From positions 80,052 through 144,051 of the forward strand of contig JAKSJP010000004.1 of NCBI GenBank assembly GCA_024398105.1: a DNA stretch of 64,000 bases, in the 5' to 3' direction. The notes under the pieces are model-generated. The model saw only the letters and a list, made by a program, of their open reading frames with translations, was not told where the DNA came from and made no database searches. The first letter of the stretch is position 1. Each line of letters starts with the position of its first letter. The translations under genes and the position numbers were made by a program. This document shows, piece after piece, positions 26,044-64,000 of the stretch. This DNA is from Bacteroidales bacterium (lineage in GTDB: Bacteria; Bacteroidota; Bacteroidia; Bacteroidales; UBA932).

Positions 26044-26162
26044 GACCTAGGTCGGCTGAAAATGCCGTGACCTAGGTCGCTTTGTTTTTGTAATAAACTG
26101 TATATCAGTATGTTCTGTATTCTGGGTGACCTAGGTCGGGCACGTTTCGTCTGACCTAGGTC
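26044..26162. repeat. 119-bp palindromic element, copy 1
   Basis: Four copies of the 10-bp palindrome GACCTAGGTC at 26044, 26069, 26128 and 26153, with gaps of exactly 15, 49 and 15 bp. The two 15-bp loops are related as inverted copies (GAAAATGCC in the first; its counterpart in the second). It fills the space between convergent genes and could fold into two hairpins. A second element with identical geometry is at 41143-41261. Both are preceded by GCTAGC. Confidence 0.9.
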
Positions 26163-26173
26163 GCGCACAGAAT

Positions 26174-27439
26174 TTAGAGAATCGTGCAGGCGTGAGGAGC
26201 GAGGGTCGCTGAAAGCTCTGTGCCCGGGACGGTGATTGTCTGCTCTTCCTCGCCGATGTTGAAGAGAGCATGGTAGGTCTTGCCCTCGACTGTAGAAGCG
26301 ACGATGAGCTGACCGTTCTCGTTGAGCACCTGGTGTACGTTCTCGCCGTACTTGTTGAGCTTGAGAAGGGTCTCGTCGGTGAGAAGAGAGAGGGTGAAGT
26401 CATCCATTGAAGGGAGGTCGCCTCCGTACATGAGAGGTGAGCGGAAGATGCAGAAGAAGGTCATGAGTGACTTCTGCTCGTCCGGGGTAAGTCTGGTAGG
26501 ACGGTCCTCGCCACGCTCGCCGCGGATTGAAAGACGGCCGAGAGGAATCATGTCGCAGTCTGGCCATGTGCCGCCTCCGATATAGTCATACCAGCCCTGG
26601 GCAACTCTCATGAGGTTTGTGACATCTCCCCAGATATCCCATACGTCGTTGACCATTCTCCACATGTTTGCATGATTCTCAAGATGGTCCGCAAACTGAA
26701 CCGGGGTTGGGCCAGGGGATGTGCTGAGCACGATAGGGCGGCCGCACTGGTCGATAGCACGACGGATGAGTCCGATCTCCTCGAGATGGTATGGAGATGA
26801 AAGGTCGTCGATCTTCACATAGTCGACACCCCATGAAGCATAGAGGTCGAAAAGCGAGTTATAATACTCCTGCGCACCTGGCTGAGAAGCATCTACTGAC
26901 TTGTTGTCTCTGAGCCATCTGCAGAGTCTGTCATTGCTATAGATCATATCTGCTGTGATTCCATTGGTGCCCTTGATAGGCATCTTGTTCTCTACAGCGA
27001 CATTTGAGATACCTCTCATGAGGTGGATACCGAACTTGAGGCCCTTGCCATGGATATAGTCAGCGAGCGGCTTGAATCCCTTGCCGCCTGCAGCTGAAGG
27101 GAACCTGTTCTCTGCAGGGATGTAGCGGCCCCACTCGTCGAGTGAGTAGATAGGGTCGGTCTGGTTGTATCCGCCTGCCTTGTCGTTGGCTACGAACCAG
27201 CGGATGTCGACGATTACATACTCCCATCCGTACTTGAGAAGGTTCTCGGCCATGTAGTCGGCATTGGCCTTCACTTCTGATTCAACAACTGTAGGACCAT
27301 AGCAGTCCCAGCTGTTCCAACCCATAGGTGGGGTAGGAGCCCAGTCGCGGAAGTCCCCAGAGGAGCTCTGCTTTCCGCCACCGCACGATGTGAGCACGCC
27401 CATCACCGCGATTGCTGCAATAATTAAGGATCTTTTCAT
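26174..27439 (-). CDS. GH27 glycoside hydrolase, Asp-Ile variant
   Basis: 421-residue lipoprotein (lipobox LTSC, Cys19). GH27 barrel motifs: PPMGWNSWDCYG at 37-48, YVIVDIRWF at 74-82, FGIHLMRG, YVKIDDL with the presumed nucleophile Asp212, and WRMVNDVWD with the presumed acid/base Asp266. The C-terminal part is the usual antiparallel beta domain. Alpha-galactosidases carry Asp-Asp in the YxxxDDxW motif; here it is Asp78-Ile79. In the Streptomyces beta-L-arabinopyranosidase of GH27 an Ile replaces the same Asp, so arabinopyranosides may be preferred. That is inference from one residue. Acts at the surface or in the periplasm. Confidence 0.8.
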   Translation of the reverse strand: MKRSLIIAAIAVMGVLTSCGGGKQSSSGDFRDWAPTPPMGWNSWDCYGPTVVESEVKANADYMAENLLKYGWEYVIVDIRWFVANDKAGGYNQTDPIYSLDEWGRYIPAENRFPSAAGGKGFKPLADYIHGKGLKFGIHLMRGISNVAVENKMPIKGTNGITADMIYSNDRLCRWLRDNKSVDASQPGAQEYYNSLFDLYASWGVDYVKIDDLSSPYHLEEIGLIRRAIDQCGRPIVLSTSPGPTPVQFADHLENHANMWRMVNDVWDIWGDVTNLMRVAQGWYDYIGGGTWPDCDMIPLGRLSIRGERGEDRPTRLTPDEQKSLMTFFCIFRSPLMYGGDLPSMDDFTLSLLTDETLLKLNKYGENVHQVLNENGQLIVASTVEGKTYHALFNIGEEEQTITVPGTELSATLAPHACTIL

Positions 27440-27489
27440 CTTGAATTGATATTAGTTGGTTTGTAATTATCTGTTTCGCTATGAGTGGA

Positions 27490-28806
27490 TCAAGTCCTGG
27501 GACGTGTCACCAGCAACAGGTTCTCCGATGCGGAATCCTTCCAGTCTACCTTGATTCCGAAAACATGCGGTACAACTTCATGTCCTTCAGTCTTCTTCGC
27601 TTTCTTTGGCGAAAGACCCATCTTCTTGCCCAGTTCCTCACTTGTCAGAGGAATGTTCCTTGCCGTTACGTCTGCCCATCCCAGCTTGTCGCCGACTGAC
27701 TTGATGGACCTTTTGTCGAGAGTATGGACCTCGTCGATCTGGAAGGTCTTTCCGAAAGGCATGATGCTTTCCGCCGTTCCGGGACCATGGTACCCTGCAT
27801 TGCCGTCTTCCCCTGCCAGGTAGAGATTGGTGAATCGTCCTAGCTTCACAAGATTGAACCTGTCACACAGGCTGTTCGGTACGCCAGCCTTGCCGAGCGC
27901 CTTCCCGGGCTCGAAGAGGGTCATCCCGACAAGCCCGCCGGTGCCCCCTGGCAATCCGGCACCGTCCTCAGGTGCTCCAATGGCTTTCCTAGGGAGAACG
28001 GCCGACGCACGGCGTTCCTCCTCAGGGTCGAACTCAATCGTATTTCCCGAGTCATGCACGAATAGCCTGTATGGCTCGCCACGGCTTTCCCTGTCCATCA
28101 GTATCAGCAGCTCCTTGCATTCACCTCCGGTCGCAACTGTGTGGACCTCAGTGACATTGCCCAGCCTTTCCACAGCCATCGTGATGTCTGCCATCGGCGA
28201 GAGCTTGAGGAATATCCAGCGGCAGATCGCGAAGATCTCGTCCTTCAGTCCTAGCACGTCCGGCTGGCAGTCCTCGATCAGGAAAACCTTCTTCCCGGAC
28301 TCAGACCTTCGGGCGGGATCCATGAACACGACGTCCGGTCCGAAACCGTCAAGGACCTCACTGACATTGCCCGGCTCTACCATCATGGATCTGGTCTTTA
28401 TGTTCATGGTACCTAGCGCGGCGAAGTTTTCCCGCACGCTTTCGGAAAGGAGCCCGTCGGCCTCGTTGTGGAGCACGGCTTCGGACCTTCGGGCAAGGTA
28501 CCATGAATCTACTCCCAGCCCGCCGGTCAGGTCGGCTATCCTTTTCCATCCCATCCTTTCGGCTATTGACGCCTTATATGCGGCCGTGGCGGCAGAACTG
28601 CACTGTTCGGTACAGAGGCGGGTAGGGTAGAGCAGGTCGCTCCTCGAACCCCATTCAGGGACTTTCGCGACGATCCTTCGGCGTCCTTCTATAGTGTTGA
28701 CAGCCAGGTCGATGTCGATTGAAGGCCACTTCCTGCGTGAAAGAAGCAGCTTGGTCGTGTCGTCGTCCTGGTGCTCGGTTATGAATTGTCGGAGGATGTG
28801 GTCCAT
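27490..28806 (-). CDS. SAM methyltransferase with THUMP-like C-terminal domain (PG_1098-like)
   Basis: 438 residues. A Rossmann methyltransferase core has motif I IADLTGGLGVDS (about 89-100) and motif IV-like FMDPARRS, followed by a ferredoxin-like region and a C-terminal THUMP-like domain ending in HVFGIKVDWKDS. This is the architecture of the Bacteroidota family around PG_1098, thought to modify RNA. The DPARR motif resembles the DPPY/NPPY site of nucleic acid amino-methyltransferases. Target unknown. A Gly/Pro-rich loop (about 272-288) interrupts the C-terminal half. Divergent from the phosphosugar mutase gene, with its own -7 box. Confidence 0.82.
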   Translation of the reverse strand: MDHILRQFITEHQDDDTTKLLLSRRKWPSIDIDLAVNTIEGRRRIVAKVPEWGSRSDLLYPTRLCTEQCSSAATAAYKASIAERMGWKRIADLTGGLGVDSWYLARRSEAVLHNEADGLLSESVRENFAALGTMNIKTRSMMVEPGNVSEVLDGFGPDVVFMDPARRSESGKKVFLIEDCQPDVLGLKDEIFAICRWIFLKLSPMADITMAVERLGNVTEVHTVATGGECKELLILMDRESRGEPYRLFVHDSGNTIEFDPEEERRASAVLPRKAIGAPEDGAGLPGGTGGLVGMTLFEPGKALGKAGVPNSLCDRFNLVKLGRFTNLYLAGEDGNAGYHGPGTAESIMPFGKTFQIDEVHTLDKRSIKSVGDKLGWADVTARNIPLTSEELGKKMGLSPKKAKKTEGHEVVPHVFGIKVDWKDSASENLLLVTRPRT

Positions 28807-28837
28807 TGATTGTCGGAAGCTTACCCTATTTGCTTTA

Positions 28838-28845
28838 CAAAAATA
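28838..28845 (-). promoter_or_regulatory. Promoter -7 box for the THUMP-like methyltransferase gene
   Basis: TATTTTTG on the minus strand, 31 nt before the ATG at 28806. Confidence 0.55.
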
Positions 28846-28867
28846 GCCATAATATGAATTATTTTCA

Positions 28868-28875
28868 TATATTTG
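28868..28875 (+). promoter_or_regulatory. Promoter -7 box for the phosphosugar mutase gene
   Basis: TATATTTG, 41 nt before the ATG at 28917, followed by an A-rich leader. Confidence 0.6.
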
Positions 28876-28916
28876 TTATCTGGTAAAATACTAAAACTCT
28901 AAAAAATAATCATCAT

Positions 28917-30584
28917 ATGGCACAGGATTACATGGAAGTTGTAAAACAGTGGCTCGAGGGTGACTTCGACCAGGAAACAAAAATGAAGGTTCTCGAACTC
29001 CGCAATAACGATCCGGTAGGTCTGGAGGATGCGTTCTACCGTAACCTCGAATTCGGTACAGGCGGTCTTCGCGGTATCATGGGCGTAGGTACCAACAGAA
29101 TGAACAAGTACACTGTCGGTATGGCTACCCAGGGCCTCGCAAACTATATCAAGGCTCACGTACAGGGTGACGACATCCGCGTCGCTATCTCTTTCGACAG
29201 CCGTAACAACAGCAAGCTTTTCGCCAAGATCACAGCTGACGTTCTTTGCGCAAACGGCCTTCATGTATTCCTCTTCGACAACATCCGTCCTACACCTGAG
29301 CTCAGCTACGCTATCCGCAAGGTCGGCGCTACTGCCGGTGTGATGGTCACTGCCTCGCACAACCCTAAGGAGTACAACGGCTACAAGGTATTCTGGGCAG
29401 ACGGCGGTCAGATCACCTCTCCAGTCGATACAGAGGTAGTCGCTGAGGTTGCCAAGATCACCGATCCTTCAATGGTGAAGTTCGTACCAGGTGAGGATGC
29501 CGGCAAGATCGACGTGATGGGCAAGGAAATCGATGAGGCTTATGTAAATGACCTCCTCTCACTCTGCCTCAGCCCTGAGTCAGTAGCAAGACACGCCGAT
29601 GAGATCAAGCTCGTCTATACTCCACTCCACGGCTGCGGTGTGAGACTCGTGCCTGAGTGCCTCAGAAGAATGGGCTTCAAGAATATCTACAACATCCCGG
29701 AGCAGGATGTCAGCGACGGTGATTTCCCTACAGTAGTTTCTCCTAACCCTGAGGAGCCTGCAGCAATGAAGATGGCCATTGACCTCGCAAACAAGGTTGG
29801 TGCTGACATCGTCCTCGCAACAGACCCTGACGCAGACCGTATGGGTATCGCAGTACGCGACAATGACGGAAACATCGTACAGTTCAACGGTAACCAGACC
29901 GCTGCTGTCATGACATATTACATCCTCAACCGCTGGAAGGATCTCGGTAAGCTTGACGGAACAAAGTACATCGTCAAGACCATCGTTACCACAGAGCTTC
30001 TCCGTGAGATCGCTGCCGGATTCGGTGTGAAGTGCTACGACGTGCTCACAGGCTTCAAGTACATCGCTGAGGTTGTCAAGAAGAACGAGGCTACAGGTGA
30101 GTTCATCTGCGGTGGTGAGGAGAGCTTCGGCTTCAACGTAGGCCAGTATGTACGTGACAAGGATGGCCAGGTTGCTGCCATGATGGTCGCTGAGGCTGCT
30201 GCATGGGCTGCAGACCAGGGTCTTACAATCTACCAGCTCCTCCAGAAGATCTACAAGGAGTATGGCTACCGCAAGGAAGGCCTTACCTCTATCGTCCGCA
30301 AGGGCAAGAGCGGTGCTGAGGAGATCCAGCAGATGATGGTTGACTTCCGTCAGAACCCTCCTAAGGACCTTCTAGGTTCTCCTGTCACAAAGGTCATCGA
30401 TTATCTCGAACCTGAGAAGACAGGCCAGCCTAAGTCTAACGTCCTCCAGTTCTTCGATGAGGCAGGTGACGTCGTGTCTATCCGTCCTTCAGGTACCGAG
30501 CCTAAGATCAAGTTCTACTTCGGTGCAAAGGGCGCAGACGCAGACCAGAAGCTCGTAGACCTCAAGGCTCAGCTCATCAAGTAG
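28917..30584 (+). CDS. Phosphoglucomutase/phosphomannomutase (alpha-D-phosphohexomutase)
   Basis: 555 residues. Interconverts hexose 1- and 6-phosphates through a phosphoserine enzyme. The phosphoserine loop VTASHNPKEYNGYK has Ser147; the Mg2+ loop reads DPDADRMGI; the sugar-binding loop GGEESFGF and the C-terminal phosphate-binding loop RPSGTEPKIKFY are all intact. Length and motifs match the PgcA/PGM2-like group rather than GlmM, which is encoded separately at 60273. Strong codon bias implies high expression. The gene stands alone between its promoter and a repeat array. Confidence 0.9.
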   Translation: MAQDYMEVVKQWLEGDFDQETKMKVLELRNNDPVGLEDAFYRNLEFGTGGLRGIMGVGTNRMNKYTVGMATQGLANYIKAHVQGDDIRVAISFDSRNNSKLFAKITADVLCANGLHVFLFDNIRPTPELSYAIRKVGATAGVMVTASHNPKEYNGYKVFWADGGQITSPVDTEVVAEVAKITDPSMVKFVPGEDAGKIDVMGKEIDEAYVNDLLSLCLSPESVARHADEIKLVYTPLHGCGVRLVPECLRRMGFKNIYNIPEQDVSDGDFPTVVSPNPEEPAAMKMAIDLANKVGADIVLATDPDADRMGIAVRDNDGNIVQFNGNQTAAVMTYYILNRWKDLGKLDGTKYIVKTIVTTELLREIAAGFGVKCYDVLTGFKYIAEVVKKNEATGEFICGGEESFGFNVGQYVRDKDGQVAAMMVAEAAAWAADQGLTIYQLLQKIYKEYGYRKEGLTSIVRKGKSGAEEIQQMMVDFRQNPPKDLLGSPVTKVIDYLEPEKTGQPKSNVLQFFDEAGDVVSIRPSGTEPKIKFYFGAKGADADQKLVDLKAQLIK

Positions 30585-30646
30585 CTTATACTACGGCGTA
30601 TATGCATTTCAGTTCGGCATCTACGCCGAATAATGCTGAATAAATA

Positions 30647-30720
30647 ACAAAGAGGCCAGATGGCCAGGGCTCCCAAAAGAGTTTGGGAATAGGTCGCCCT
30701 GATCCACCTGGTCTCTTTGT
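30647..30720 (-). repeat. Structured hairpin element E1 at the left edge of the 73-bp array
   Basis: Imperfect inverted repeat (arms 30647-30663 and 30704-30720, 16 of 17 positions pair with one G-U) enclosing nested hairpins AGGGC/GCCCT and CCCAAA/TTTGGG. On the minus strand the core reads AGGGCGACC, then TTCCCAA, then TTGGGAGCCC. The same core occurs in the opposite orientation at 31119-31192. It may also terminate the mutase transcript. Confidence 0.75.
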
Positions 30721-30732
30721 ATGTTCCTGTCT

Positions 30733-31093
30733 GCAAATGCCGAGACCTGGTGCGCTGCTGCGCCGCCGGTGCTGTCAGGAAGGCTGTTGTTGCACCAGGT
30801 GTCAATGAAATGCCGAGACCTGGTGCGCTGCTGCGCCGCCGGTGCTGTCAGGAAGGCTGTTGTTGCACCAGGTGTCAATGAAATGCCGAGACCTGGTGCG
30901 CTGCTGCGCCGCCGGTGCTGTTAGGAAGGCTGTTGTTGCACCAGGTGTCAGTGGAATGCCGAGACCTGGTGCGCTGCTGCGCCGCCGGTGCTGTCAGGGA
31001 GGCTGTTGTTGCACCAGGTGTCAATGAAATGCCGAGACCTGGTGCGCTGCTGCACCGCCGGTGCTGTCAGGAAGGCTGTTGTTGCACCAGGTC
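30733..31093. repeat. Tandem array, five units of exactly 73 bp, with inverted 10-bp arms
   Basis: GACCTGGTGC occurs at 30744, 30817, 30890, 30963 and 31036. Its partner GCACCAGGTG occurs at 30792, 30865, 30938 and 31011, with a final GCACCAGGTC at 31084. Arms are separated alternately by 38 bp (GC-rich) and 15 bp (containing GAAATGCC). Units differ by only one to three bases. The array runs between the convergent mutase and greA genes. It opens with one arm orientation and closes with the other. Spacers are near-identical, so it is not CRISPR. Confidence 0.95.
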
Positions 31094-31118
31094 TCTGACA
31101 TGAACGCCTCAGCCACCG

Positions 31119-31192
31119 ACAGACAGGTCTCAAAAGTAAGGGCGACCATTTTCCCAAGTTCCTTGGGAGCCCGTCTTTTGAGACCTGTCTGT
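31119..31192 (+). repeat. Structured hairpin element E2 at the right edge of the 73-bp array
   Basis: Perfect 18-bp inverted repeat (arms 31119-31136 and 31175-31192, arm core GACAGGTCTCAAAA) enclosing GGGC/GCCC and CCCAAG/CTTGGG. The core AGGGCGACC ... TTCCCAA ... TTGGGAGCCC matches E1 in reverse orientation, while the outer stems differ. Confidence 0.8.
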
Positions 31193-31234
31193 TGCTAACA
31201 GTAGTTCTGTCTGTTGCTAACAGTAGTTCTGTCT
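31185..31234 (+). repeat. Short 22-bp tandem duplication next to E2
   Basis: CTGTCTGTTGCTAACAGTAG plus TT is present at 31185-31206 and 31207-31228, with the first six bases again at 31229. Each unit holds a small hairpin CTGTT-GCT-AACAG. It overlaps the right arm of E2 and lies just before the greA stop. Confidence 0.85.
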
Positions 31235-31247
31235 GCGAGAGATCTGG

Positions 31248-31718
31248 CTACCCCTCGAGCGAGACACTGTCGATCCTGAGGCGCAGCGTCGCCGCTGGAA
31301 CCTTCACCTCGACGATATCACCAGCCTTCTTTCCCATCAATGCGCTGCCGATAGGGGACTTAAGTGAAATCTTACCTTCCTGGAGATTCATCTCGTGAGG
31401 ACTGACTATAGTGTAGGTCATCCTGGCACCCGTATCGAGATTGGTGAATTCTACCTTGCTCAGAAGACATACCTCGTCCTTGGGAAGAAGCTTCGTGTCA
31501 ATGACTCTGGAATACTTGAGTACTTTCTGAAGGAAGCGGATTCTGCTTATGCATTTAGCCTGGGCCCTTCTGGCGGCACGGTAACCGAAATTCTCGCTCA
31601 GGTCTCCCTGGGCGCGGGCCTCTGAGAGATCGTCCTTGATCTTCGGATATGTGACGTCGATGAGCTCCTCAAGCTCGGCGACGATCTTGTCATGAGCTTC
31701 CTGTGAAAGATATTCCAT
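31248..31718 (-). CDS. greA: Transcription elongation factor GreA
   Basis: 156 residues. GreA enters the RNA polymerase secondary channel and stimulates cleavage of backtracked RNA. The N-terminal coiled coil carries the tip EARAQGDLSENFGY with acidic Asp39 and Glu42 in the expected places, and the C-terminal FKBP-like domain contains SPIGSALMGKKAGDIVEV. Length is as for the family. The tip loop ends FGYRAARRAQ rather than the enterobacterial AEYHAAKE, common in Bacteroidota. It is convergent with the mutase gene across the 73-bp array. Confidence 0.93.
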   Translation of the reverse strand: MEYLSQEAHDKIVAELEELIDVTYPKIKDDLSEARAQGDLSENFGYRAARRAQAKCISRIRFLQKVLKYSRVIDTKLLPKDEVCLLSKVEFTNLDTGARMTYTIVSPHEMNLQEGKISLKSPIGSALMGKKAGDIVEVKVPAATLRLRIDSVSLEG

Positions 31719-31760
31719 ATCTGTGGCTTTTTTGCAAAGATAAACACTATATTCGGTGAT

Positions 31761-31850
31761 ATGAAGAAAGTAATAGCAATCACAATGGCGGCTACAATAC
31801 TGCTGACCGCATGTGGAGACAAAGATATAATAGTTATCCCTTCGGCATAA
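31761..31850 (+). CDS. Tiny 29-residue lipoprotein
   Basis: A 29-codon frame encodes a full lipoprotein signal peptide (MKKVIAITMAATILLTAC, lipobox LTAC, Cys18) followed by only eleven residues, GDKDIIVIPSA. A short A/T-rich gap to greA (divergent) allows a promoter. The last codons lie in the left arm of a perfect hairpin, so gene end and terminator are fused. It could be a genuine micro-lipoprotein like entericidin or Lpp-type peptides, or the surviving head of a truncated lipoprotein gene. The intact lipobox and the terminator favour expression. Too short to recognise a family. Confidence 0.5.
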   Translation: MKKVIAITMAATILLTACGDKDIIVIPSA

Positions 31851-31868
31851 TCACCGAAGGGATAACTA
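31829..31868. terminator. Hairpin terminator overlapping the micro-lipoprotein end
   Basis: Perfect 16-bp inverted repeat with arms ATAGTTATCCCTTCGG and its complement around an 8-nt loop, between the small lipoprotein and the convergent peptidase ending at 31905. Confidence 0.85.
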
Positions 31869-31904
31869 TTAAGAGTCTGTCGGTCAGGTGTTTATGACCG
31901 ATCC

Positions 31905-33932: not shown

Positions 33933-33951
33933 GATTATAGGTATTATCCGT

Positions 33952-35478
33952 TTATTTCAATACATCAGGTTTCACTGGTATTCTTCCTGGGTCTTCCGCT
34001 GCGCAGAGGACCAGCCATGCTGTGATGCATGCGTCGATCCTGAGGTCCTCGAGAGACAGACGCTCGAAGGTGTCCATGATCGTGTGGTAGGTCCTGTCGT
34101 ACTCAAGCTCATCCTGGATGAACTGATATGCAGGCAGGCCCAGTCGATCGAAGGTGACATGGTCAGTAGAACCTGTGGTCCTAGGACTGAGGACGTTGAA
34201 TCCGAGAGATTCTACAGGTCCCATCCATGCCTTGAAGAACGGAACTGCCATGTCGTTCCTCTCAAGATGGATGCCACGGAAACGGCCTGAACCGTTGTCC
34301 ATGTTGAGGTAGAGCGCGAACTTGTCATAGCCTGGGAGCTTCTGCTTGTCGGCCTTCCTGTAGAGGTTGTTCTCAGCATATCCTGCTGATCCGTAGAGTC
34401 CCTGCTCCTCACCGCCCCAGAGAGCGAGACGGATGGTACGCTTCGGCTGGTAGCCGATGGCCTTGAGGATACGCATAGCCTCCATCATTACTATACATCC
34501 CGATGCGTTGTCTGCACCGCCGGTACCTCCATGCCATGAATCCAGATGTGCTCCGATCATGACGATCTCATCCTTGAGCTGAGGATCGGTACCTGGAATC
34601 TCTGCCATGACATTGTTGATCTTCTGGTTGTCAGTGAACCTGTTCTTCAGCTCGACCTCCATCCTGACCTTTTCGCCTCTCTCGATAAGGCGGACCATAC
34701 GTCCATGGTCCTCGATAGGCATGATGATCTCAGGAATCGGCTCCGGGTCTCCGGCCTTATATGACACGCCTGTGGCAGAAGGAACGTTGAACGAACCGCG
34801 TCCCGTCACTACGCATATAGGCTTCTCATTCTTGATGAACTCAGCCATCGCTCTCTGGAGAGCCTGGCTTGGTCCGGTCCTGCGGTAGGTCGACCTAGGT
34901 CGGATCTCGGCACGGCTGTCCGTCGCATATCTTTCAAGCTCCTCGTCGGTAAGCCTGCTGGCCAAAGGCTCGAAGCTCATGGTATATGTCTGGGTCTCAG
35001 GCATGAGGACTATCTTCCCCTTGAGCTTGCCCTTGTATTCCTTCAGGTCGCTCTCCTCGAGCGGGTCGAACAGCACACATTCAGCTTCCTGCAGGCCCTT
35101 GGTGCTTCCTGACCACGCCTTCGGATTGACAGAGAATGCACAGTAGTATGGTGCTGTCATGGCGGCGTAGGTCTTCTCAACGTCCCATCCACCCTTTGCG
35201 AAGTCGCATGCGTATTCAGCGCGTGGGTCGGACAGACCGAATTCCTCGAGCTTGCTGATCACGAGGCCCTCGGCACGAAGCTTCATCTGAGATGCGGCGA
35301 GACGCGATCCGAGAAGGTCTGTCATGAACCTTGAGAGGTCGTAGATCTGGGAATTGTTGAAAGCTTCCTGCTTGACTTTGTAGGCCAGTTCTTCACTTGG
35401 ACATACCTGTGCGCTGAGGCTGGTCGCGAAGAATGCTGCCATTGCGGCGGAGATAATGGTTCTTCTTGTATTCATCAT
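33952..35478 (-). CDS. Secreted M28-family aminopeptidase/carboxypeptidase
   Basis: 508 residues with a signal peptide ending near SLSAQ (about 24). The zinc ligands of M28 peptidases are all visible: GAHLDSWH, GGADNASG, WGGEEQGLYGS, LNMDNGSG and TYHTIMDTFE. A PA-like insertion domain (about 125-265) lies before the catalytic domain, as in the PGCP/Q-type carboxypeptidases. It cleaves single residues from peptides outside the cytoplasm. First gene of the two-peptidase operon. The coding sequence contains one GACCTAGGTC palindrome at 34892-34901, the same word that makes up the intergenic elements. Confidence 0.85.
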   Translation of the reverse strand: MMNTRRTIISAAMAAFFATSLSAQVCPSEELAYKVKQEAFNNSQIYDLSRFMTDLLGSRLAASQMKLRAEGLVISKLEEFGLSDPRAEYACDFAKGGWDVEKTYAAMTAPYYCAFSVNPKAWSGSTKGLQEAECVLFDPLEESDLKEYKGKLKGKIVLMPETQTYTMSFEPLASRLTDEELERYATDSRAEIRPRSTYRRTGPSQALQRAMAEFIKNEKPICVVTGRGSFNVPSATGVSYKAGDPEPIPEIIMPIEDHGRMVRLIERGEKVRMEVELKNRFTDNQKINNVMAEIPGTDPQLKDEIVMIGAHLDSWHGGTGGADNASGCIVMMEAMRILKAIGYQPKRTIRLALWGGEEQGLYGSAGYAENNLYRKADKQKLPGYDKFALYLNMDNGSGRFRGIHLERNDMAVPFFKAWMGPVESLGFNVLSPRTTGSTDHVTFDRLGLPAYQFIQDELEYDRTYHTIMDTFERLSLEDLRIDACITAWLVLCAAEDPGRIPVKPDVLK

Positions 35479-39429: not shown

Positions 39430-41106
39430 ATGATGGAAGAGAACAACAGCAACATCCAGGAGCCAAGGAAGCTCAATTTCCTTGAGGAGATCATCGAGGC
39501 AGACCTTGCAGAGGGCAAGGTTGACAGCGTAATGACCCGTTTCCCTCCTGAGCCGAACGGATATCTGCATCTTGGACATGCCAAGAGCATCTGTATAAAT
39601 TTCGGCCTTGCCCAGAAATACGGCGGCAAGACCAACCTTCGCTTTGACGACACCAACCCTACCAAGGAGGACACCGAGTATGTAGACTCTATCAAGGAGG
39701 ACATCAAGTGGCTCGGCTTCGACTGGGAGAACGAGTTCTATGCATCTGACTATTTCGACCAGCTCTATGACTGGGCGGAGCAGATGATCAAGGAGGGACT
39801 CGCATATGTCGATGACCAGACCCAGGAGGAGATCAGCAAGGGACGTGGTTCAGTCGACAAGCCAGGTGTCGAGAGTCCTTACAGGAACCGCAGCGTGGAG
39901 GAGAACCTCCAGCTCTTCCGTGACATGAAAGCCGGCAAGTATGCCGACGGTGAGAAGGTACTCCGCGCCAAGATCGACATGGCACATCCTAACATGATGT
40001 TCCGTGACCCTCTCCTTTACCGTATCAAGCATGCGAACCACCATCGTACCGGTGACAAGTGGTGCATCTATCCGATGTACGACTACACCCATGGCCAGTG
40101 CGACTCCATCGAGCATATCACCCACTCTATCTGTACTCTCGAGTTCGACGTCCACAGACCTCTCTACGACTGGTTCATCAAGACTCTCCGCATCTACCCA
40201 AGCCATCAGTATGAGTTCGCGAGACTCAACCTTACATACACTCTCATGTCTAAGCGCAAGCTCCTCGAGCTCGTGCAGAAGAACTACGTAAGCGGCTGGG
40301 ACGACCCTCGTATGCCTACGCTCTGCGGTGTCCGCAGAAGAGGTTATCCTGCAGCTGCGCTCAGGATGTTCTGCGAGAAGATCGGCGTCTCAAAGCGTGA
40401 CCAGCTGATGGACATCCAGCTCCTCGAGTGGTGCGTACGCCAGGAGCTCAACGCGAAGTCAAACCGCTACATGGTAGTCCAGGATCCGATCAAGGTGACC
40501 CTCACCAACTGGGAGCCAGGAAAGGTAGAATGGTTCGACTGCCCGCTCAACCCGGCTGAGCCGGAGGGTGCAACCAGAAAGGTTCCATTCACAGGTGAGC
40601 TTCTCATCGACAGGGCTGACTTCATGGAGGATGCTCCTAAGAAGTTCTTCCGCCTCAAGCCGGACGGAGAGGTGCGTCTCAAGTACACCTACATCATCAA
40701 GTGCAACGAGGTGATCAAGGATGCCGAGGGCAACGTGGTTGAGCTCAAGTGTACCTATGATCCATCAACTCACCCTGTTACAGGTGAGTGGCGTTCAGTC
40801 AAGGGTACCATCCATTGGGTATCGACCGAGCATGCAAAGCCTATCGAGCTCAGGAACTACGACCGTCTCTTCACCGAGGCTGACATGAACTCCATCCCTG
40901 CCGACAGGGACTACAAGGAGTTCCTCAACCCTGAGTCGCTCGTCGTCTCTACAGCATATGCTGAGCCAGCTCTCATCGAGGACAAGAGCGGCATCGCCGT
41001 TCAGTTCGAGAGAACCGGTTACTACATCATCGACAAGGACAGCACCGCCGAGAAGGTCGTCTTCAACAAGACCACCTCGCTCAAGGACTCTTACAGACCG
41101 GAATAA
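39430..41106 (+). CDS. glnS: Glutamine--tRNA ligase
   Basis: 558 residues, the usual length for bacterial GlnRS. It charges tRNA-Gln with glutamine in the cytosol. The class I signatures are intact: HLGH at 47-50 within RFPPEPNGYLHLGHAKS, and MSKRK at about 273-277. The catalytic domain is followed by the two beta-barrel anticodon-binding domains (from about 345), with VKWE/KGTIHWVS-type strands. Two ATG codons stand in tandem at the start; either is possible. It is a single-gene unit ending before the second palindromic element. Confidence 0.95.
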   Translation: MMEENNSNIQEPRKLNFLEEIIEADLAEGKVDSVMTRFPPEPNGYLHLGHAKSICINFGLAQKYGGKTNLRFDDTNPTKEDTEYVDSIKEDIKWLGFDWENEFYASDYFDQLYDWAEQMIKEGLAYVDDQTQEEISKGRGSVDKPGVESPYRNRSVEENLQLFRDMKAGKYADGEKVLRAKIDMAHPNMMFRDPLLYRIKHANHHRTGDKWCIYPMYDYTHGQCDSIEHITHSICTLEFDVHRPLYDWFIKTLRIYPSHQYEFARLNLTYTLMSKRKLLELVQKNYVSGWDDPRMPTLCGVRRRGYPAAALRMFCEKIGVSKRDQLMDIQLLEWCVRQELNAKSNRYMVVQDPIKVTLTNWEPGKVEWFDCPLNPAEPEGATRKVPFTGELLIDRADFMEDAPKKFFRLKPDGEVRLKYTYIIKCNEVIKDAEGNVVELKCTYDPSTHPVTGEWRSVKGTIHWVSTEHAKPIELRNYDRLFTEADMNSIPADRDYKEFLNPESLVVSTAYAEPALIEDKSGIAVQFERTGYYIIDKDSTAEKVVFNKTTSLKDSYRPE

Positions 41107-41142: not shown

Positions 41143-41261
41143 GACCTAGGTCACCTGAAAAGGCCCCGACCTAGGTCACTTTCTTTTGGTATGTATCTGA
41201 AATTCAAGCAGATAAAAAATCTGCATGACCTAGGTCACCCATCTTTCGTCCGACCTAGGTC
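41143..41261. repeat. 119-bp palindromic element, copy 2
   Basis: GACCTAGGTC at 41143, 41168, 41227 and 41252, gaps 15, 49 and 15 bp, identical geometry to 26044-26162. The first loop shares CTGAAAA and GCC with copy 1, the second shares TTTCGTC. The 49-bp centres are unrelated in sequence. It lies between the convergent glnS and nth genes. Confidence 0.9.
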
Positions 41262-41490: not shown

Positions 41491-42135
41491 TCAGACCTTC
41501 ACGTGTGTGGCGAGATACTCGCGGCAGAAGTCGGCGAGGCCGCAGGCGTCGCATTTCGGATTTCGGGCGGTGCAGGTGTAGCGGCCGTGGAGGATGAGCC
41601 AGTGGTGGCCGATGGCACGGTCCTCTTCGCTGATGTATTTCTCAAGCTCTTTCTGGACGGCGACGGGTGTCTTGCCGTCGGACAGTCCGATGCGGTGCGA
41701 TACCCTGAAGACATGGGTGTCTACGGCGATCACTGGCTTGTCGTAGACGACTGCCGCTATGACGTTGGCGGTCTTGATGCCTACACCCGGCAATCTGACG
41801 AGATCATCTATGTCCGAAGGTACCATGGAACCGAAATCCTCGACCAGCATCTTTGCCATGGCGATCAGGTGTCTGGCCTTGTTGTTAGGATATGAGATGC
41901 TCCTGACGTAGCCGAAGACTTCCTCGAAGTCGGCGGCAGCAAGTGATTCCGGGGTCGGATATGCCTTGAAAAGCGGGGGAGAGACGATGTTGACCCTCCG
42001 GTCGGTGCACTGTGCGGACAGGATGACGGCGATCAGGAGGTGGAAAGGATTGTCGTAATGGAGCTCTGTCTCCGCGACGGGGACGTTCTCCTTGAACCAT
42101 CCTATCACTGACGCATATCTGTCTTTCTTCCTCAT
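41491..42135 (-). CDS. nth: Endonuclease III
   Basis: 214 residues. DNA glycosylase/AP lyase removing oxidised pyrimidines. The helix-hairpin-helix LPGVGIKTANVI carries the catalytic Lys and VDTHVFRVSHRIGL the catalytic Asp. The 4Fe-4S cluster loop is complete with spacing C-x6-C-x2-C-x5-C near the C-terminus (CTARNPKCDACGLADFC). Length is typical. It is downstream of ftsE on the same strand, 48 nt away. Confidence 0.95.
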   Translation of the reverse strand: MRKKDRYASVIGWFKENVPVAETELHYDNPFHLLIAVILSAQCTDRRVNIVSPPLFKAYPTPESLAAADFEEVFGYVRSISYPNNKARHLIAMAKMLVEDFGSMVPSDIDDLVRLPGVGIKTANVIAAVVYDKPVIAVDTHVFRVSHRIGLSDGKTPVAVQKELEKYISEEDRAIGHHWLILHGRYTCTARNPKCDACGLADFCREYLATHVKV

Positions 42136-56215: not shown

Positions 56216-57438
<1,223 letters not shown>

Positions 57439-57453
57439 GTAGTATCATTAAAT

Positions 57454-57552: not shown

Positions 57553-57563
57553 AATATTTCCTG

Positions 57564-59531: not shown

Positions 59532-59550
59532 GGTACCTTGTTCTTGCTGA

Positions 59551-59982
59551 TTATCTGTTATTGATCTTTCCCAAGTCATCTATCTGGCTGCCGGATGGCT
59601 CAGTTGCGGAGATTATCTTGTCGACGATGTACTTTGTGTTGCCTCTCCAAGGAATGACGCCCTTGTACTGCTTGTAATGGACCTGGACAAGCTGTCCGCC
59701 AAGTCCCATGAGAGTCTCGGCGATCTCGGGATCCTTGACAGAGAACTCAAGGTTGTAGGACTCGATGAGCGCTCCGTTGGCTGCATTGCCTCCACGGATG
59801 CCCGCCTGGATGATCTTGCCCTCATATGTCTTGAACAGATAGCCTTTCAGCGCGAACTGGTTCAGCTCTCCGGCCTTTACGCCTTCTGCGAAGACGAAGT
59901 AATATTTGAAATAGGTAAATCCCGTTACGAACAGCAGAGCCAGCAGGATGCTGATAAGGGTGATCTTGGTTTTCGTTCTCAT
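59551..59982 (-). CDS. Small single-pass membrane protein of unknown function
   Basis: 143 residues from the ATG at 59982, which starts a basic N-terminus (MRTKTKITLIS) and one hydrophobic helix (about 7-27). The remainder is a small beta-rich domain (FKTYEGKIIQAGIRGG, LEFSVKDPEIAETLMGLGGQLVQVHYKQY, PWRGNTKYIVDKI) that would face the periplasm. Bacteroidales genomes carry similar proteins of unknown function, sometimes called 6-phosphogluconate dehydrogenase by error; there is no such motif here. First gene before DPP IV. Confidence 0.7.
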   Translation of the reverse strand: MRTKTKITLISILLALLFVTGFTYFKYYFVFAEGVKAGELNQFALKGYLFKTYEGKIIQAGIRGGNAANGALIESYNLEFSVKDPEIAETLMGLGGQLVQVHYKQYKGVIPWRGNTKYIVDKIISATEPSGSQIDDLGKINNR

Positions 59983-60109
59983 TATAAATGATTGATTAGG
60001 TATATGATGCAAAGATAGCAATCTTGGAGAAGTATCGGAACGTGACATAAAAGAAAAAAGCGACTGAAGATTCAGCCGCTCTGTTCATTAGGCAGTGTTT
60101 CCACCACCT

Positions 60110-60184
60110 TGGTACTGGGTAGGAGAATCGAACTCCTATTGCGAGATTGAGAATCTCGAGTACTAACCGTTATACGAACCCAGC
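60110..60184 (-). tRNA. tRNA-Glu (anticodon CUC)
   Basis: 75 nt with encoded CCA. The acceptor arm GCTGGGT pairs with ACCCAGT (first pair G-U), the anticodon arm is CGAGA-TTCTCAA-TCTCG with CTC at 60149-60151, and the T arm is AGGAG-TTCGATT-CTCCT. It reads GAG glutamate codons. The D arm contains GGTTAGTA. The first base pair being G-U is slightly unusual. Confidence 0.95.
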
Positions 60185-60206
60185 GTGTTAGTTGTTGATT
60201 GGATTG

Positions 60207-60236
60207 CAAAGATAGGCAAATTATATTACACTCCAA
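60207..60236 (-). promoter_or_regulatory. Promoter of tRNA-Glu
   Basis: On the minus strand TTTG (60233-60236) and TATCTTTG (60207-60214) are 18 bp apart; the tRNA starts 22 nt after the -7 box. Confidence 0.65.
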
Positions 60237-60246
60237 ATTTTTTTTG

Positions 60247-60254
60247 TATTTTTG
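60247..60254 (+). promoter_or_regulatory. Promoter -7 box for glmM
   Basis: TATTTTTG, 18 nt before the ATG at 60273, divergent from the tRNA-Glu promoter. Confidence 0.6.
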
Positions 60255-60272
60255 TAAAAATAATTGACAAAT

Positions 60273-61727
60273 ATGACCCTTATCAAATCTATTTCCGGAA
60301 TCCGTGGTACAATCGGAGGCAATCCAGGGGAGTCTCTTACCCCGATTGATGTAGTCAAGTTCACATACGCATATTGCGAAAAACTCCGCGAAAGAAGGCC
60401 TAAGGCCGAGGGCGAAAGATATAAGGTAGTAGTCGGAAAGGATGCAAGACTTTCAGGCGAGATGGTCGAGAACCTTGTAGTGGGTACTCTCATCTCATGC
60501 GGCGTCGATGTCGTCAAGGCTGGCTTCGCATCTACCCCAACCACAGAACTTGCAGTCACCTTCTGCGAGGCTGACGGCGGTATCATCCTTACCGCTTCCC
60601 ACAACCCACGCCAGTGGAATGCCCTCAAGCTTCTCAACGAGAAGGGTGAGTTCCTCAACGCAGAGGAAGGTCAGGCTATCCTCGACTGCGCTGAGGCAGA
60701 GAATTTCTGCTTCGCTTCAGTCGATGAGCTTGGTGTCATCGAGGAGAGGGATTTCACAGACGAGCACATCCAGTTAGTCCTTGATCTCGAGGCTGTGGAC
60801 GTAGAGGCGATCAAGACTGGAAAGTTCAAGGTCGTCCTTGATGCCATCAACTCCGTAGGCGGAATCATCATGCCACGTCTCCTCGACAAGCTTGGTGTTG
60901 AGTGCATCAAGATCAACTGCGAGCCTACAGGTGACTTCGCACATAATCCTGAACCGCTTCCAAAGAACCTCGTCGAGCTCAGCGAGACTGTCGTGAAGGA
61001 AGGCGCTGACTTCGGTATCTCAGTGGATCCGGATGTGGACCGTCTTGCATTCATCAGCGAGAACGGTGAGCCTTTCGTAGAGGAATATACACTCGTCAGC
61101 GTTGCAGACTACCTCTTCTCAAGGGCGGCTGCAAACGCTAAGGCGAAGGGCATCTCACTTGAAGAGGAGTGCGCACCATATAAGCCTGTGTCATGCTCTA
61201 ACCTTTCTTCTTCACGTGCGCTCAGAGACGTCACCGAGCAGTATGGCGGCCGATATGAGGCTGCTGCGGTAGGTGAGGTGAACGTGACTACAAAGATGCG
61301 TTCAGAGTGTGCGCTCATCGGTGGAGAGGGCAACGGAGGCGTAATCTATCCTGCAAGCCACTATGGCCGTGATGCCATGGTCGGTGTCGCTCTCTTCCTC
61401 AGCAACCTCGCTGCAAAGAAGATGAAGGTGTCAGAACTTAAGGCAACATATCCTCCATACTTCATCGCGAAGAACAAGATCGAGCTCTCAGACAAGGCGC
61501 TCATCGACAAGATCCTTGAGGAACTCAAGGTCGTATACGCGTCAGAGAACATCAATGACATCGACGGTGTAAAGATCAACTTCGAGGCTACGAAGCAGTG
61601 GGTTCATCTCCGCAAGTCAAATACCGAGCCTATCATCCGTATCTATGCTGAGGCACAGACTATGGAGGAGGCTGAGGCTCTTGCAGAGAAGGTCATCGCC
61701 GTTGCAAACAAGATAATCGGCAAGTAA
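60273..61727 (+). CDS. glmM: Phosphoglucosamine mutase
   Basis: 484 residues. Converts glucosamine-6-phosphate to glucosamine-1-phosphate, the route to UDP-GlcNAc and peptidoglycan. Phosphoserine loop LTASHNPRQWNALK (Ser109), Mg2+ loop DPDVDRLAF, and the C-terminal RKSNTEPIIRIYAEA are all present; GGEGNGGV marks the sugar-binding loop. GlmM-type is favoured over phosphomannomutase by the EGNGG loop and by the peptidoglycan-related neighbour. The ATG at 60273 was chosen over a TTG at 60264. The next gene starts 1 nt after the stop. Confidence 0.88.
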   Translation: MTLIKSISGIRGTIGGNPGESLTPIDVVKFTYAYCEKLRERRPKAEGERYKVVVGKDARLSGEMVENLVVGTLISCGVDVVKAGFASTPTTELAVTFCEADGGIILTASHNPRQWNALKLLNEKGEFLNAEEGQAILDCAEAENFCFASVDELGVIEERDFTDEHIQLVLDLEAVDVEAIKTGKFKVVLDAINSVGGIIMPRLLDKLGVECIKINCEPTGDFAHNPEPLPKNLVELSETVVKEGADFGISVDPDVDRLAFISENGEPFVEEYTLVSVADYLFSRAAANAKAKGISLEEECAPYKPVSCSNLSSSRALRDVTEQYGGRYEAAAVGEVNVTTKMRSECALIGGEGNGGVIYPASHYGRDAMVGVALFLSNLAAKKMKVSELKATYPPYFIAKNKIELSDKALIDKILEELKVVYASENINDIDGVKINFEATKQWVHLRKSNTEPIIRIYAEAQTMEEAEALAEKVIAVANKIIGK

Positions 61728-61728
61728 G

Positions 61729-62796
61729 ATGTTCTCTTTCAGGACGACTCCGCTCGAGGATCAGCTCGACAAGGCTCTGATGGACGGTAAGGTAGGGTGC
61801 TTCTGTACCCAGAACTGCTGGGATACCGGCAGGGACAGGTATATGTACCAGCTTTTTCAGGAAAGGGGCAACCTTGAGATCGTGCTTACACCCCGTGATG
61901 CTGAGCTTACTCCAGGCACCAACCATATCGAGTTCACCAAAGAACAGCTTGCGCCGCTTTCAGCTGTTGTCGTGGAGATCCAGGACGTCGGCTCACGTTA
62001 CTTCAACTACACTAAGGACGTGCTTCGTCTGATGTCCGTCATGGTGGAACTAGGCGACGAGGCTCCTGCTCTCTACATCGTCGACCACCTGAATCCGGCC
62101 GGTCGTCACGTGGAAGGGTCCATCCCTTCCGGGACCATGGAGGCATTCGTGCCGAAGGTCGCGCATAGACACGGCCTTACTCTTGGCGAACTCTGTAATC
62201 TCTATTACAGCGAGATCGGAGCGAAGTTCTCTCTCCATATCATCTCAGCTCTTGCATCGGACACTACCCATCAGCTCATGCCATGGACCATAGCCCCGGC
62301 TTCGGATATCCCGGGCATGTTCACGTGCTATATGTACAGCGGCGGCGGTCTCTGGAACAATACGAACATTACCCCTGCGATCGGAACGGCCCGTCCATAT
62401 GAGTATATCGGTGCTCCATTCGTGAAGGCGGTGATGGATGACGACCTGCCGGTTCCTGATGGCGTGATGATGCGTCCATGTTCTTTCACTCCGTCTGCCG
62501 GACAGTATGCAGGGGAGAGGTGCTATGGCTATCAGATCATGCTGCAGCCAGGCGCTGAGTATCATTCTCTTCTCCATACCCTCCAGCTGATGCGCTTCTT
62601 CAAAGAGAAGTATCCTCAGTTTGAGATCGGTCCGGAATTCTACCGTAAGCTTGCGGATCCGGTGCTCGCTGACTATCTCGCCGGAAAGATTTATTTCGCT
62701 GATGCGAGAGACCATGTGAAGGTAGAAGAGCAGAAGTGGATCAGGAAGGCCAAGAGATTTGCTTTATATGACGATCAGCCTGTCAGAATTAAGTAA
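61729..62796 (+). CDS. DUF1343 / GH171 NamZ-like exo-N-acetylmuramidase
   Basis: 355 residues. The DUF1343 core is recognisable: FTKEQLAPLSAVVVEIQDVGSRYFNYTKDVLRLM, VDHLNPAGRHVEGS, HGLTLGELCNLY and an IAPASDIPG segment, all typical of NamZ, which releases N-acetylmuramic acid from the non-reducing end of peptidoglycan fragments. There is no signal peptide, unlike exported NamZ proteins, so the enzyme may act on cytosolic muropeptides during recycling. Starts 1 nt after glmM, which makes the UDP-GlcNAc precursor, so synthesis and turnover of wall sugars appear linked in one unit. Activity is inferred from the family. Confidence 0.78.
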   Translation: MFSFRTTPLEDQLDKALMDGKVGCFCTQNCWDTGRDRYMYQLFQERGNLEIVLTPRDAELTPGTNHIEFTKEQLAPLSAVVVEIQDVGSRYFNYTKDVLRLMSVMVELGDEAPALYIVDHLNPAGRHVEGSIPSGTMEAFVPKVAHRHGLTLGELCNLYYSEIGAKFSLHIISALASDTTHQLMPWTIAPASDIPGMFTCYMYSGGGLWNNTNITPAIGTARPYEYIGAPFVKAVMDDDLPVPDGVMMRPCSFTPSAGQYAGERCYGYQIMLQPGAEYHSLLHTLQLMRFFKEKYPQFEIGPEFYRKLADPVLADYLAGKIYFADARDHVKVEEQKWIRKAKRFALYDDQPVRIK

Positions 62797-62803
62797 AATA
62801 TTC

Positions 62804-62833
62804 TTGTCGTTTCAGGAATTATTCGTAAATTTG
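62804..62833 (+). promoter_or_regulatory. Promoter of rpmE2 with -33 and -7 boxes
   Basis: TTG at 62804-62806 and TAAATTTG at 62826-62833 are 19 bp apart, a textbook Bacteroidota promoter; the rpmE2 ATG is at 62880. Confidence 0.75.
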
Positions 62834-62879
62834 TCGCTCCAATTGGAACTATAGTTAACAATACTTAATTAATTAAGAA

Positions 62880-63131
62880 ATGAAAAAAGGAATCCATCCC
62901 GAAACCTACCGTCTTGTAGCTTTCAAGGATATGTCAAACGACACAGTGTTCATCACACGTTCATGCGCTTCTACAAAGGAGACTCTCGAAGTTGACGGTG
63001 TTGAGTACCCTGTCGTAAAGGTCGAGATTTCCAACACTTCTCATCCTTTCTACACTGGTAAAGTCAAGCTCGTTGACACCGCCGGTCGTGTTGATAAATT
63101 CTACCAGAGATACAAGAGCCGTCAGAAGTAA
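62880..63131 (+). CDS. rpmE2: 50S ribosomal protein L31 type B
   Basis: 83 residues beginning [20 protein letters not shown], the signature of type B L31. The zinc-binding CxxC pairs of type A L31 are absent, so it does not need zinc, a form that many bacteria use or that is the only one in Bacteroidota. The C-terminal [24 protein letters not shown] is the conserved L31 block. It has its own promoter and a strong terminator. Confidence 0.95.
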
Positions 63132-63159
63132 TCATCGAATTACTTTTCGAAATAGGACA

Positions 63160-63194
63160 AAAGAAGCCAGTTCAAGGAACTGGCTTCTTTTTTT
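63160..63194 (+). terminator. Rho-independent terminator of rpmE2
   Basis: 14-bp perfect stem (AAAGAAGCCAGTTC / GAACTGGCTTCTTT) with a 3-nt loop, followed by a T run. Confidence 0.95.
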
Positions 63195-63257
63195 ATGTCA
63201 GCCCGAAGCTGGTTGCTCTCGTTGCCATATATTTGCCGTAAGGCGATGGTTCCTCAC

Positions 63258-63407
63258 TTTTGCAAATCGGAGTGCATGGAGAAACCTGATCTGTACGCTG
63301 AGTGGCGCATTGTCATGCGCTCCTGGCACTGTCTGGCCTATGAGTGCATAAGAAACACCATCCTGGGTGCTTAGAATTCTGGTCGGGATGCACTCCGATT
63401 TGCAAAA
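63258..63407. mobile_element. MITE-like element with 20-bp perfect terminal inverted repeats
   Basis: Arms 63258-63277 and 63388-63407 are perfect reverse complements (TGCAAATCGGAGTGCAT core) and enclose 110 bp. Inside is a hairpin GCGCAT-TGTC-ATGCGC. There is no open frame of note. The 150-bp size and perfect ends suggest a non-autonomous transposable element or a long foldback; I see no clear target-site duplication. Confidence 0.5.
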
Positions 63408-63666
63408 GGCCGGCCCGCTGATGCGGGCTTTCCTAATGTCTTGAGCGGTCGCCGAACTGCTATCTGTTCTTCGCCGAGCTGTTTGTCTGCTCTTCGGCGA
63501 GCTGGCGGATGTCTCCTCCGAGGACCCGTGGCCGCCCGCGGCCTCGTGAGCGGGAGGGGCCCAGCTTCAGCTGGGAGGGACGAGCGAAGCGAGGGTTTCG
63601 TTAGCACCACTGCACAACATCGCACCAGCACCACGTCGCGGGAGGGAGACAAGCTTCCCTGAAATG
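63408..63666. other. GC-rich non-coding stretch with hairpins
   Basis: No credible gene. It has a GCCCGC/GCGGGC hairpin near 63412-63428 and, at 63548-63579, GAGCGGGAGGGGCCCA followed by an AGCT-stem and TGGGAGGG, the same flanks as in the clpX terminator loop at 57496-57524 but with a different stem. Long open frames across it are by-products of high GC. Confidence 0.5.
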
Positions 63667-64000
63667 GACCTAGTGCGGGAAAGGACGTCTCTTGCTCTGG
63701 GTGGCTGATGTGTGCACCAGGTCCAGGCGTTTTGACGAGACCTGGTGCAGGGAAGGGTGTCTCTTGCTCTGTGTGGTTGATTCGTGCGCCAGGTCCAGGC
63801 TTTTTGACGAGACCTGGTGCAGGGAAAGGTGTCTCTTGCTCTGGGTGGTTGATTCGTGCACCAGGTCCAGGCGTTTTGGCGAGACCTGGTGCGAGGAAAG
63901 GTGTCTCTTGCTCTGTGTGGCTGATGTGTGCACCAGGTCCAGGCATTTTGACGAGACCTGGTGCAGGGAAGGGTGTCTCTTGCTCTGTGTGGCTGATTCG
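63667..64000. repeat. Tandem array of 72-bp units with inverted 10-bp arms (cut by window end)
   Basis: GACCTGGTGC at 63739, 63811, 63883 and 63955 (a GACCTAGTGC variant at 63667); partners GCACCAGGTC at 63714, 63858 and 63930 and GCGCCAGGTC at 63786. Gaps alternate between 37 bp and exactly 15 bp; the 15-bp loop reads close to CAGGCGTTTTGACGA. Units differ by a few bases. The array continues past 64000. Because 72 is a multiple of three, open frames with 24-residue repeats appear, but no start signals support them. Confidence 0.95.

Follow-up and report, generated by a model that had tools for sequence, protein, structure and literature searches.

Hairpin elements of fixed 10-15-10 geometry in a Bacteroidales genome: a probable REPIN-like family and its cognate RAYT transposase

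The stretch analysed here (the window, 64,000 nucleotides) covers positions 80052-144051 of contig C34 in a metagenome-assembled genome (MAG) of a Bacteroidales bacterium (2.43 Mb, 48 contigs, 91.8% complete); a glnS comparison revealed rumen and gut MAGs as the closest relatives of its lineage. The window holds a family of hairpins, in each of which two 10-bp arms enclose 15 bp. We interpret them as non-autonomous elements similar to REPINs (doublets of repetitive extragenic palindromes, REPs) and to bacterial interspersed mosaic elements (BIMEs), dispersed by a cognate REP-associated tyrosine transposase (RAYT) of the HUH/Y1 type, and assign this reading a probability of about 0.85.

Two arm types were distinguished in the window. 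The arm GACCTAGGTC starts at 26044, 26069, 26128 and 26153 and again at 41143, 41168, 41227 and 41252, that is, twice in steps of 25-59-25, resulting in two hairpins spaced 84 bp at each locus; a ninth exact copy is solitary at 34892, within open reading frames. The second arm type, GCACCAGGTC/GACCTGGTGC, forms tandem arrays of 72- or 73-bp period, where arms of the form GCACCAGGT[CG] or GCGCCAGGTC are paired with GACCTGGTGC, the 10-bp arms enclosing exactly 15 bp. The elements and arrays are the following:

26044..26162: complete element 1 (119 bp), four GACCTAGGTC arms at 25-59-25; hairpin 26044-26078, 49-bp linker 26079-26127, hairpin 26128-26162
30744..31093: period-73 tandem array; hairpins 30792-30826, 30865-30899, 30938-30972 and 31011-31045; flanking half-sites are a lone right arm (30744-30753) and a lone left arm (31084-31093)
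41143..41261: complete element (119 bp), four GACCTAGGTC arms at 25-59-25; hairpin 41143-41177, 49-bp linker 41178-41226, hairpin 41227-41261
63667..64000: period-72 tandem array; lone right arm 63667-63676; hairpins 63714-63748, 63786-63820, 63858-63892 and 63930-63964

A preliminary description of this DNA had placed the 10-15-10 pattern at four loci. Hairpins do begin at 26044 and 41143, whereas 30744 and 63667 proved to be the lone right arms that open the tandem arrays. Likewise, only part of the proposed loop core, GAAA(A)TGCC, was recovered: tracts of A or T were common about the middle of the loop, but TGCC was not general. The fixed geometry itself was borne out. When the window was searched for the core AGGT[CG]-N(L)-[CG]ACCT, at least four of the five outer bases were complementary in 12/12 occurrences at L = 15 and in 0/27 at any other L between 5 and 40. 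Folding of the window hairpins as single-stranded DNA, with 10 nt added per side, revealed four of five to beat at least 199 of 200 shuffles; the one at 30792 was unremarkable, 8/200 shuffles folding equally well.

At all three window loci with both neighbours known, the flanking genes are convergent, as the description had it:

24942..26018, + strand: alpha/beta hydrolase-like gene (weak Pfam matches), left neighbour of element 1, convergent with 26174..27439
26174..27439, - strand: melibiase-like gene, right neighbour of element 1
28917..30584, + strand: phosphoglucomutase/phosphomannomutase, left neighbour of the period-73 array
31248..31718, - strand: GreA/GreB, right neighbour of the period-73 array
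39430..41106, + strand: glutaminyl/glutamyl-tRNA synthetase, left neighbour of the 41143 element
41491..42135, - strand: endonuclease III-like gene, right neighbour of the 41143 element

Nineteen elements and arrays of the genome were considered, seven of which were left out for an unknown neighbour; of the remaining 12, nine had a convergent placement, compared with 11/45 gene pairs of the window (p = 3e-4) and 6/14 pairs with gaps of at least 100 bp (p = 0.025); the other three were placed between tandem or divergent genes. This position is most simply explained by tolerance of insertion.

The pattern was not confined to the window. Genome-wide, GACCTAGGTC occurred 72 times versus 8 times for the reversed control, and the pair GACCTAGGTC-N(10-40)-GACCTAGGTC 33 times versus 0, with a gap of 15 in 28 pairs, 18 in four and 23 in one. 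The spacing thus does not vary freely; it is mostly 15, with a few gaps of 16, 18 and 23. Neither of the two results named by the preliminary description as refuting it was therefore seen. When up to three mismatches were tolerated, the count of hairpins having a 15-bp loop was 69 versus 2 in the control. There are 13 complete GACCTAGGTC elements with every arm exact and two more with one degenerate arm. In all 15, the middle is 49 bp long though its sequence diverges, with a median identity of 22/49 (all pairs, both orientations) and a best identity of 37/49 when a recent copy and two RAYT-flanking copies are left out. The arms are modular, in that the half-sites GACCT/AGGTC and GCACC/GGTGC combine; a chain on contig C5 (L032) has both. 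In the recent copy, which lies in inverted orientation, 119 identical bp are extended by 21 bp on the left (one mismatch) and 20 bp on the right, the contexts otherwise differing; a target duplication was not evident at this single copy. No empty site could be read in the glnS loci of relatives (23/80, L047-L069), where neither GACCTAGGTC nor a recurrent 10-15-10 hairpin was found.

A search for a RAYT-like Y1 gene, which the preliminary description had named as a check, yielded ten such genes (REP-associated, HUH/Y1) in the genome, four of which pass a Pfam search for Y1. Two copies of the GACCTAGGTC element in direct orientation flank one of them (G000:C23:116840-117799, hereafter the C23 RAYT). 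The surrounding repeats are direct, 178 nt long and 94% alike, each comprising a complete element and, in steps of 28 bp, two further arms. The catalytic residues H68, H70 and Y128 (H-x-H and Y) were invariant in 35/35 aligned rows, the C23 protein being counted twice, and a profile comparison with a set including clear PF01797 members gave a probability of 99.7. Members of this clade have about 305 aa, a large C-terminal part and the Y motif YI[PL]RNA. Outside the C23 unit, identical direct repeats of 24 bp were noted (L039 2966-2989 and 4918-4941); the upstream gene has its stop codon within one of these overlaps. They lie 58 and 111 bp outside the 178-nt repeats and were considered as a possible target duplication.

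The RAYT-like genes of this genome are divergent: of seven that were aligned, six were 17-31% identical to the first. A second RAYT, on C12, carries arrays of AGGTG-N15-CACCT on both sides, at 51 bp and in inverted orientation (L037 2585-2838 and 4254-4436). For the GCACCAGGTC arrays, no RAYT flanked by this arm type was found and assignment to one RAYT failed. Other RAYTs of the genome have quite different structured flanking repeats of 129-252 nt; those in L163, L178 and L179 have in common inverted arms separated by 109 nt. These repeats are at:

L163: 2596-2756 and 4060-4220
L179: 1120-1271 and 2426-2577
L128: 784-912 and 2010-2138
L178: 1014-1409 and 2524-2775

Immediately upstream of the C23 RAYT lies a gene for a protein of 117 aa (L039 3284-3637), termed the companion. 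A homologue was present in 29/70 RAYT loci, the one on C23 included, and in 13 of the 29 loci from the initial search, where its position was checked, a companion of 116-117 aa directly precedes the RAYT. No convincing known family was found for it. A comparison of its profile with the PDB gave a sub-significant match to 1r4v (E = 0.087), labelled a hypothetical protein, which serves as a lead only. We take 1r4v to be histone-fold-like.

Homologues of the C23 RAYT were found in 303/400 genomes of the genus (E<=1e-10). None of 100 other genus genomes contained the exact arm pair, which suggested an element of one species; this idea was overturned by a search in which the arms were left free. 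From other genomes, 69 of the strongest RAYT loci were examined (29 from the initial search and 40 fetched later; some genomes contribute two or three); counts out of 70 include the C23 RAYT. Perfect inverted repeats of any sequence were collected in the upstream 1300 bp and the downstream 900 bp, with 23 glnS loci, comparable in total length, as the control. Loops of 15 (n = 47) and 17 (n = 36), which share a common centre, prevailed over loops of 11 (n = 10), 13 (n = 7) and 12, 14, 16 and 18 (n = 1, 0, 3 and 0), whereas the glnS control gave at most four inverted repeats at any loop length. A second rise was seen at loops of 38-41 (n = 17, 10, 11 and 6), which we take to be arms pairing across the spacer. 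The 83 sequence-free repeats with loops of 15 or 17 were spread over 47/69 loci, and a loop-proximal AGGT was present in 77 of them (47/47 with loop 15 and 30/36 with loop 17).

Selecting for the inner core revealed 110 hairpins in 53/69 loci; at least four of the five outer bases were complementary in 105 and three in the other five. Covariation was analysed in 56 hairpins, namely one for each of the 53 loci and three from the window. In this set, 96.2% of cells were paired, 75 double changes were observed versus 19.6 in shuffled data, and 6/6 variable pairs covaried; the innermost pair was unpaired in 11/55 hairpins. The AGGT/ACCT columns are fixed by the selection, and their constancy rests on the sequence-free scan. 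The kept geometry and the compensated arms indicate selection on a folded strand. The earlier suggestion of selection for shape thus gained support from 53 loci of other genomes. Hairpins adjoin 65/70 RAYTs and stand on both sides of 33.

Among 51 doublets in the RAYT loci, the loops were more alike inverted in 39 and direct in six. The hairpin pitch at the RAYT loci was 62 bp (6), 63 bp (5), 72 bp (1), 73 bp (4), 74 bp (3), 75 bp (26), 84 bp (5) or 94 bp (1), with no other pitch between 36 and 130 bp; in the genome containing the window it was 51 bp (6), 72 bp (6), 73 bp (5), 84 bp (14) or 98 bp (1). The best period was 10.8 bp, with a Monte Carlo p of 0.0016 when seven states were judged independent and 0.039 for five distinct ones. 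Distances therefore cluster about one helical turn apart; because the pitch classes changed only four times on the RAYT tree, this ladder is suggestive. The 26 spacers of the 75-bp class (40 nt) were seen to have a common imperfect inverted repeat, AAtnTGCC...GGCcgaTT, whose 3' side bulges by two bases.

An arm label could be assigned at 62/70 loci, giving 23 types. On the RAYT tree, the label required 27 changes (minimum 22) versus 43.9 after shuffling, and none of 200 shuffles was as low. A search of the 400 genus genomes for GGGGAAGGTS-N(5-35)-SACCTTCCCC gave matches in 33 genomes (168 places) versus 5 for the reversed control. Loops of 5-35 were allowed, yet 72 of the 75 listed places have a loop of 15. 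A close RAYT (E<=1e-45, a cut-off chosen by the analyst) was present in 22/33 genomes with GGGGA hairpins versus 94/367 others (p = 3e-6; counted by eye). When 295 genomes were sampled from 183 genera of the order, the RAYT clade gave no match at E<=1e-15 in the 293 outside the genus; the only two matches in the sample belong to this genus, and two listed genomes without a match share its family. No relative was found among viral contigs (searched with the RAYT profile), phages (one RAYT) or plasmids (the companion).

Taken together, the stem sequence appears to change along with the transposase in related gut bacteria, while size and spacing stay fixed. The REP-associated transposase that the preliminary description had offered as one source of the pattern is supported by the RAYT found between copies and by arm types that follow the RAYT tree; from this association and the one recent copy we infer mobilisation by the RAYT. 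In the mechanism that we propose, the RAYT would bind a folded single strand with a 10-bp stem, a 15-nt loop and a loop-proximal AGGT/ACCT. By analogy with TnpA_REP and REPINs, it probably grips two hairpins together, the doublet being the unit, and its tyrosine may nick beside the hairpin before the strand is joined elsewhere (PMC8266576 and PMC3116915). Copies would persist mostly between convergent genes, where little is broken. The outer arm may encode specificity, drifting as the RAYT does, and the geometry would be a fixed frame required by the enzyme. The common core, loop length and pitch suggest that this RAYT, or else a sister of it, probably serves the GCACCAGGTC arrays too.

Other explanations of the hairpins were weighed. 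They could form an array of helically phased duplex sites bound by a nucleoid protein, a regulatory protein or, as in BIMEs, gyrase. The pitch clusters of 51, 62-63, 72-75, 84 and 94 bp with their best period of 10.8 bp, the palindromic arms and the A/T tract fit this proposal, but the arms covary across a constant loop, as expected for a folded strand and not for separate duplex sites; moreover, the outer arm sequence is free, the elements are associated with RAYT genes, and the pitch rests on few independent events (four changes on the tree), with the genome's own pitch of 98 off the ladder. We consider duplex sites improbable. Bidirectional intrinsic terminators between convergent genes, their geometry being kept for termination, would account for the 9/12 convergent placements, which exceed the window background, and for a T-rich stretch directly after element 1 (26044..26162). 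Termination, however, needs no exact 15-nt loop, no near-constant AGGT/ACCT, no RAYT between copies and no arms that track a tree, and 3/12 placements are tandem or divergent; as an explanation of the hairpin family we regard terminators as very improbable. At three loci, a terminator scan gave 1, 1 and 2 sites versus 0.4, 0.4 and 0.6 in shuffled sequence, one site falling on a hairpin arm; the scan accepts loops of 3-8 and so does not judge the hairpins as wholes. Least probable of all are old miniature inverted-repeat transposable elements derived from a DD(E/D) insertion sequence of the usual kind that lie near RAYTs by coincidence; inverted-repeat ends, small size and dispersed copies are shared with such elements, but hairpins stand beside 65/70 RAYTs of one clade, the arm type tracks that transposase, and the recent copy shows no evident target duplication.

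Several observations weigh against dispersal of REPIN-like elements by a RAYT. The copy number in the genome is in the tens, not the hundreds (69 places with up to three mismatches), and neither excision nor cleavage nor an empty site was seen. Family assignment of the protein is weak: PF01797 was matched by 14/19 members and the NCBIfam model REP_Tyr_transpos by 6/19 (both at E<=0.01), with the C23 member under the curated cut-off in each case, and a PDB sequence search with the RAYT profile gave seven chains at E 0.28-0.51, with no transposase among them. The tetranucleotide GT[AG]G was found within 6 nt of the hairpin foot at 1/310 feet (background 254/14000), and at 1/30 outer feet in the genome's own elements. 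Furthermore, the loops of these elements are not clearly inverted (8/15), and the tandem arrays in the window are direct, not inverted. The inner core is absent from 16/69 loci. On the tree, 8/70 loci are unlabelled, the commonest arm types need several changes (GGGCA 8, GGGGA 6), near-copies add to the clustering of labels, and the C23 RAYT sits on a long branch (1.57); 11/33 genomes with GGGGA hairpins are without a close RAYT.

For comparison with known systems, PMC6006769, PMC8266576, PMC3116915 and PMC3733652 were drawn on. With REP/RAYT systems (REPtrons), the present one shares an HUH motif with a single tyrosine, a gene flanked by a dispersed repeat and the co-evolution of repeat and transposase; the canonical GT[AG]G 5' of the hairpin foot is absent here. 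The REPIN unit, two inverted REPs with a spacer, is recognised in the doublets at RAYT loci. Like the Pseudomonas REPINs of groups GI-GIII (PMC3116915), the elements are inverted doublets of short hairpins with conserved ends, a kept length and a freer spacer, dispersed between genes and accompanied by a cognate Y1 transposase. Common spacings are 71 and 110 bp there and mostly 62-84 bp here, and the present elements further differ in having no GTAG, a 10-bp stem, a 15-nt loop, a loop-proximal AGGT/ACCT, discrete pitch classes and a companion gene. Short REPs have loops of 2-5 nt (PMC6006769).

The E. coli BIMEs and TnpA_REP (PMC8266576) are similar in their mosaic and tandem hairpin arrays and in recognition of single-stranded DNA by an HUH protein as the likely mechanism, but E. 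coli REPs require GTAG and a stem bulge, whereas here there is no foot motif and the 10-bp arms are mostly fully paired. TnpA_Y1 subclass 2.6 (Quentin et al. 2018, PMC6006769) also comprises a Y1 gene of Bacteroidetes with non-canonical flanking structures that are copied elsewhere in the genome. Its members have a median of 179 aa and the motif YIH[QN]NP, as opposed to about 305 aa and YI[PL]RNA here; the present system may nevertheless overlap that subclass with its "atypical secondary structures". IS200/IS605 elements share the HUH/Y1 core and hairpins adjoining the gene, yet instead of a multicopy, near-identical transposase of about 150 aa we found ten divergent copies and about 305 aa. 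Part of that family has a tnpB partner; the upstream neighbour of the C23 RAYT is the 117-aa gene. Hence, we conclude that the system works like a REPIN/RAYT system and is a variant differing by the absent GT[AG]G, the 15-nt loop and a protein under curated cut-offs. This variant was not found in searches of open-access full text.

The published experiments consulted on the recognition and spread of REPs by RAYTs concern GTAG-type REPs of Proteobacteria. Here a single genus supplies dozens of transposases, each with its matching hairpins, whose differences lie mainly in a compensated half-stem, whereby recognition determinants, specificity switches and the roles of loop length and phase become testable via swaps of cognate and non-cognate partners. 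In addition, genes under curated cut-offs gain a name (RAYT). A bolder and rather doubtful extension is a two-protein machine, in which a genus-restricted RAYT and the 117-aa partner would read pairs of hairpins whole helical turns apart, the outer half-stem being a rewritable address and loop length and phase being fixed. If true, the RAYT system would carry a ruler, and its enzyme-hairpin pairs would form an orthogonal series provided by nature.

Some further observations concern the arrays. The period-72 array (63667-64000) reaches the contig end, the last base of the window being the end of C34, and C6 begins in 72-bp arrays of the same kind (G000:C6:1-480). C34 and C6 may adjoin, the assembly being broken within the 72-bp array, and such arrays may explain where this assembly is broken. 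The period-73 array is flanked by bigger structured repeats at 30667-30700 and 31119-31192. The segments 30667-30700 and 31139-31172 are inverted copies (76%), the right one sitting within perfect inverted arms of 18 nt, and two exact tandem copies of 22 bp lie next to the array at 31185-31228. Rfam gave no match for the elements in the window or at nine more loci; on the minus strand of the window, it revealed a flavin mononucleotide (FMN) riboswitch at 14992-15123, a tmRNA at 18893-19290 and a tRNA at 60113-60184.

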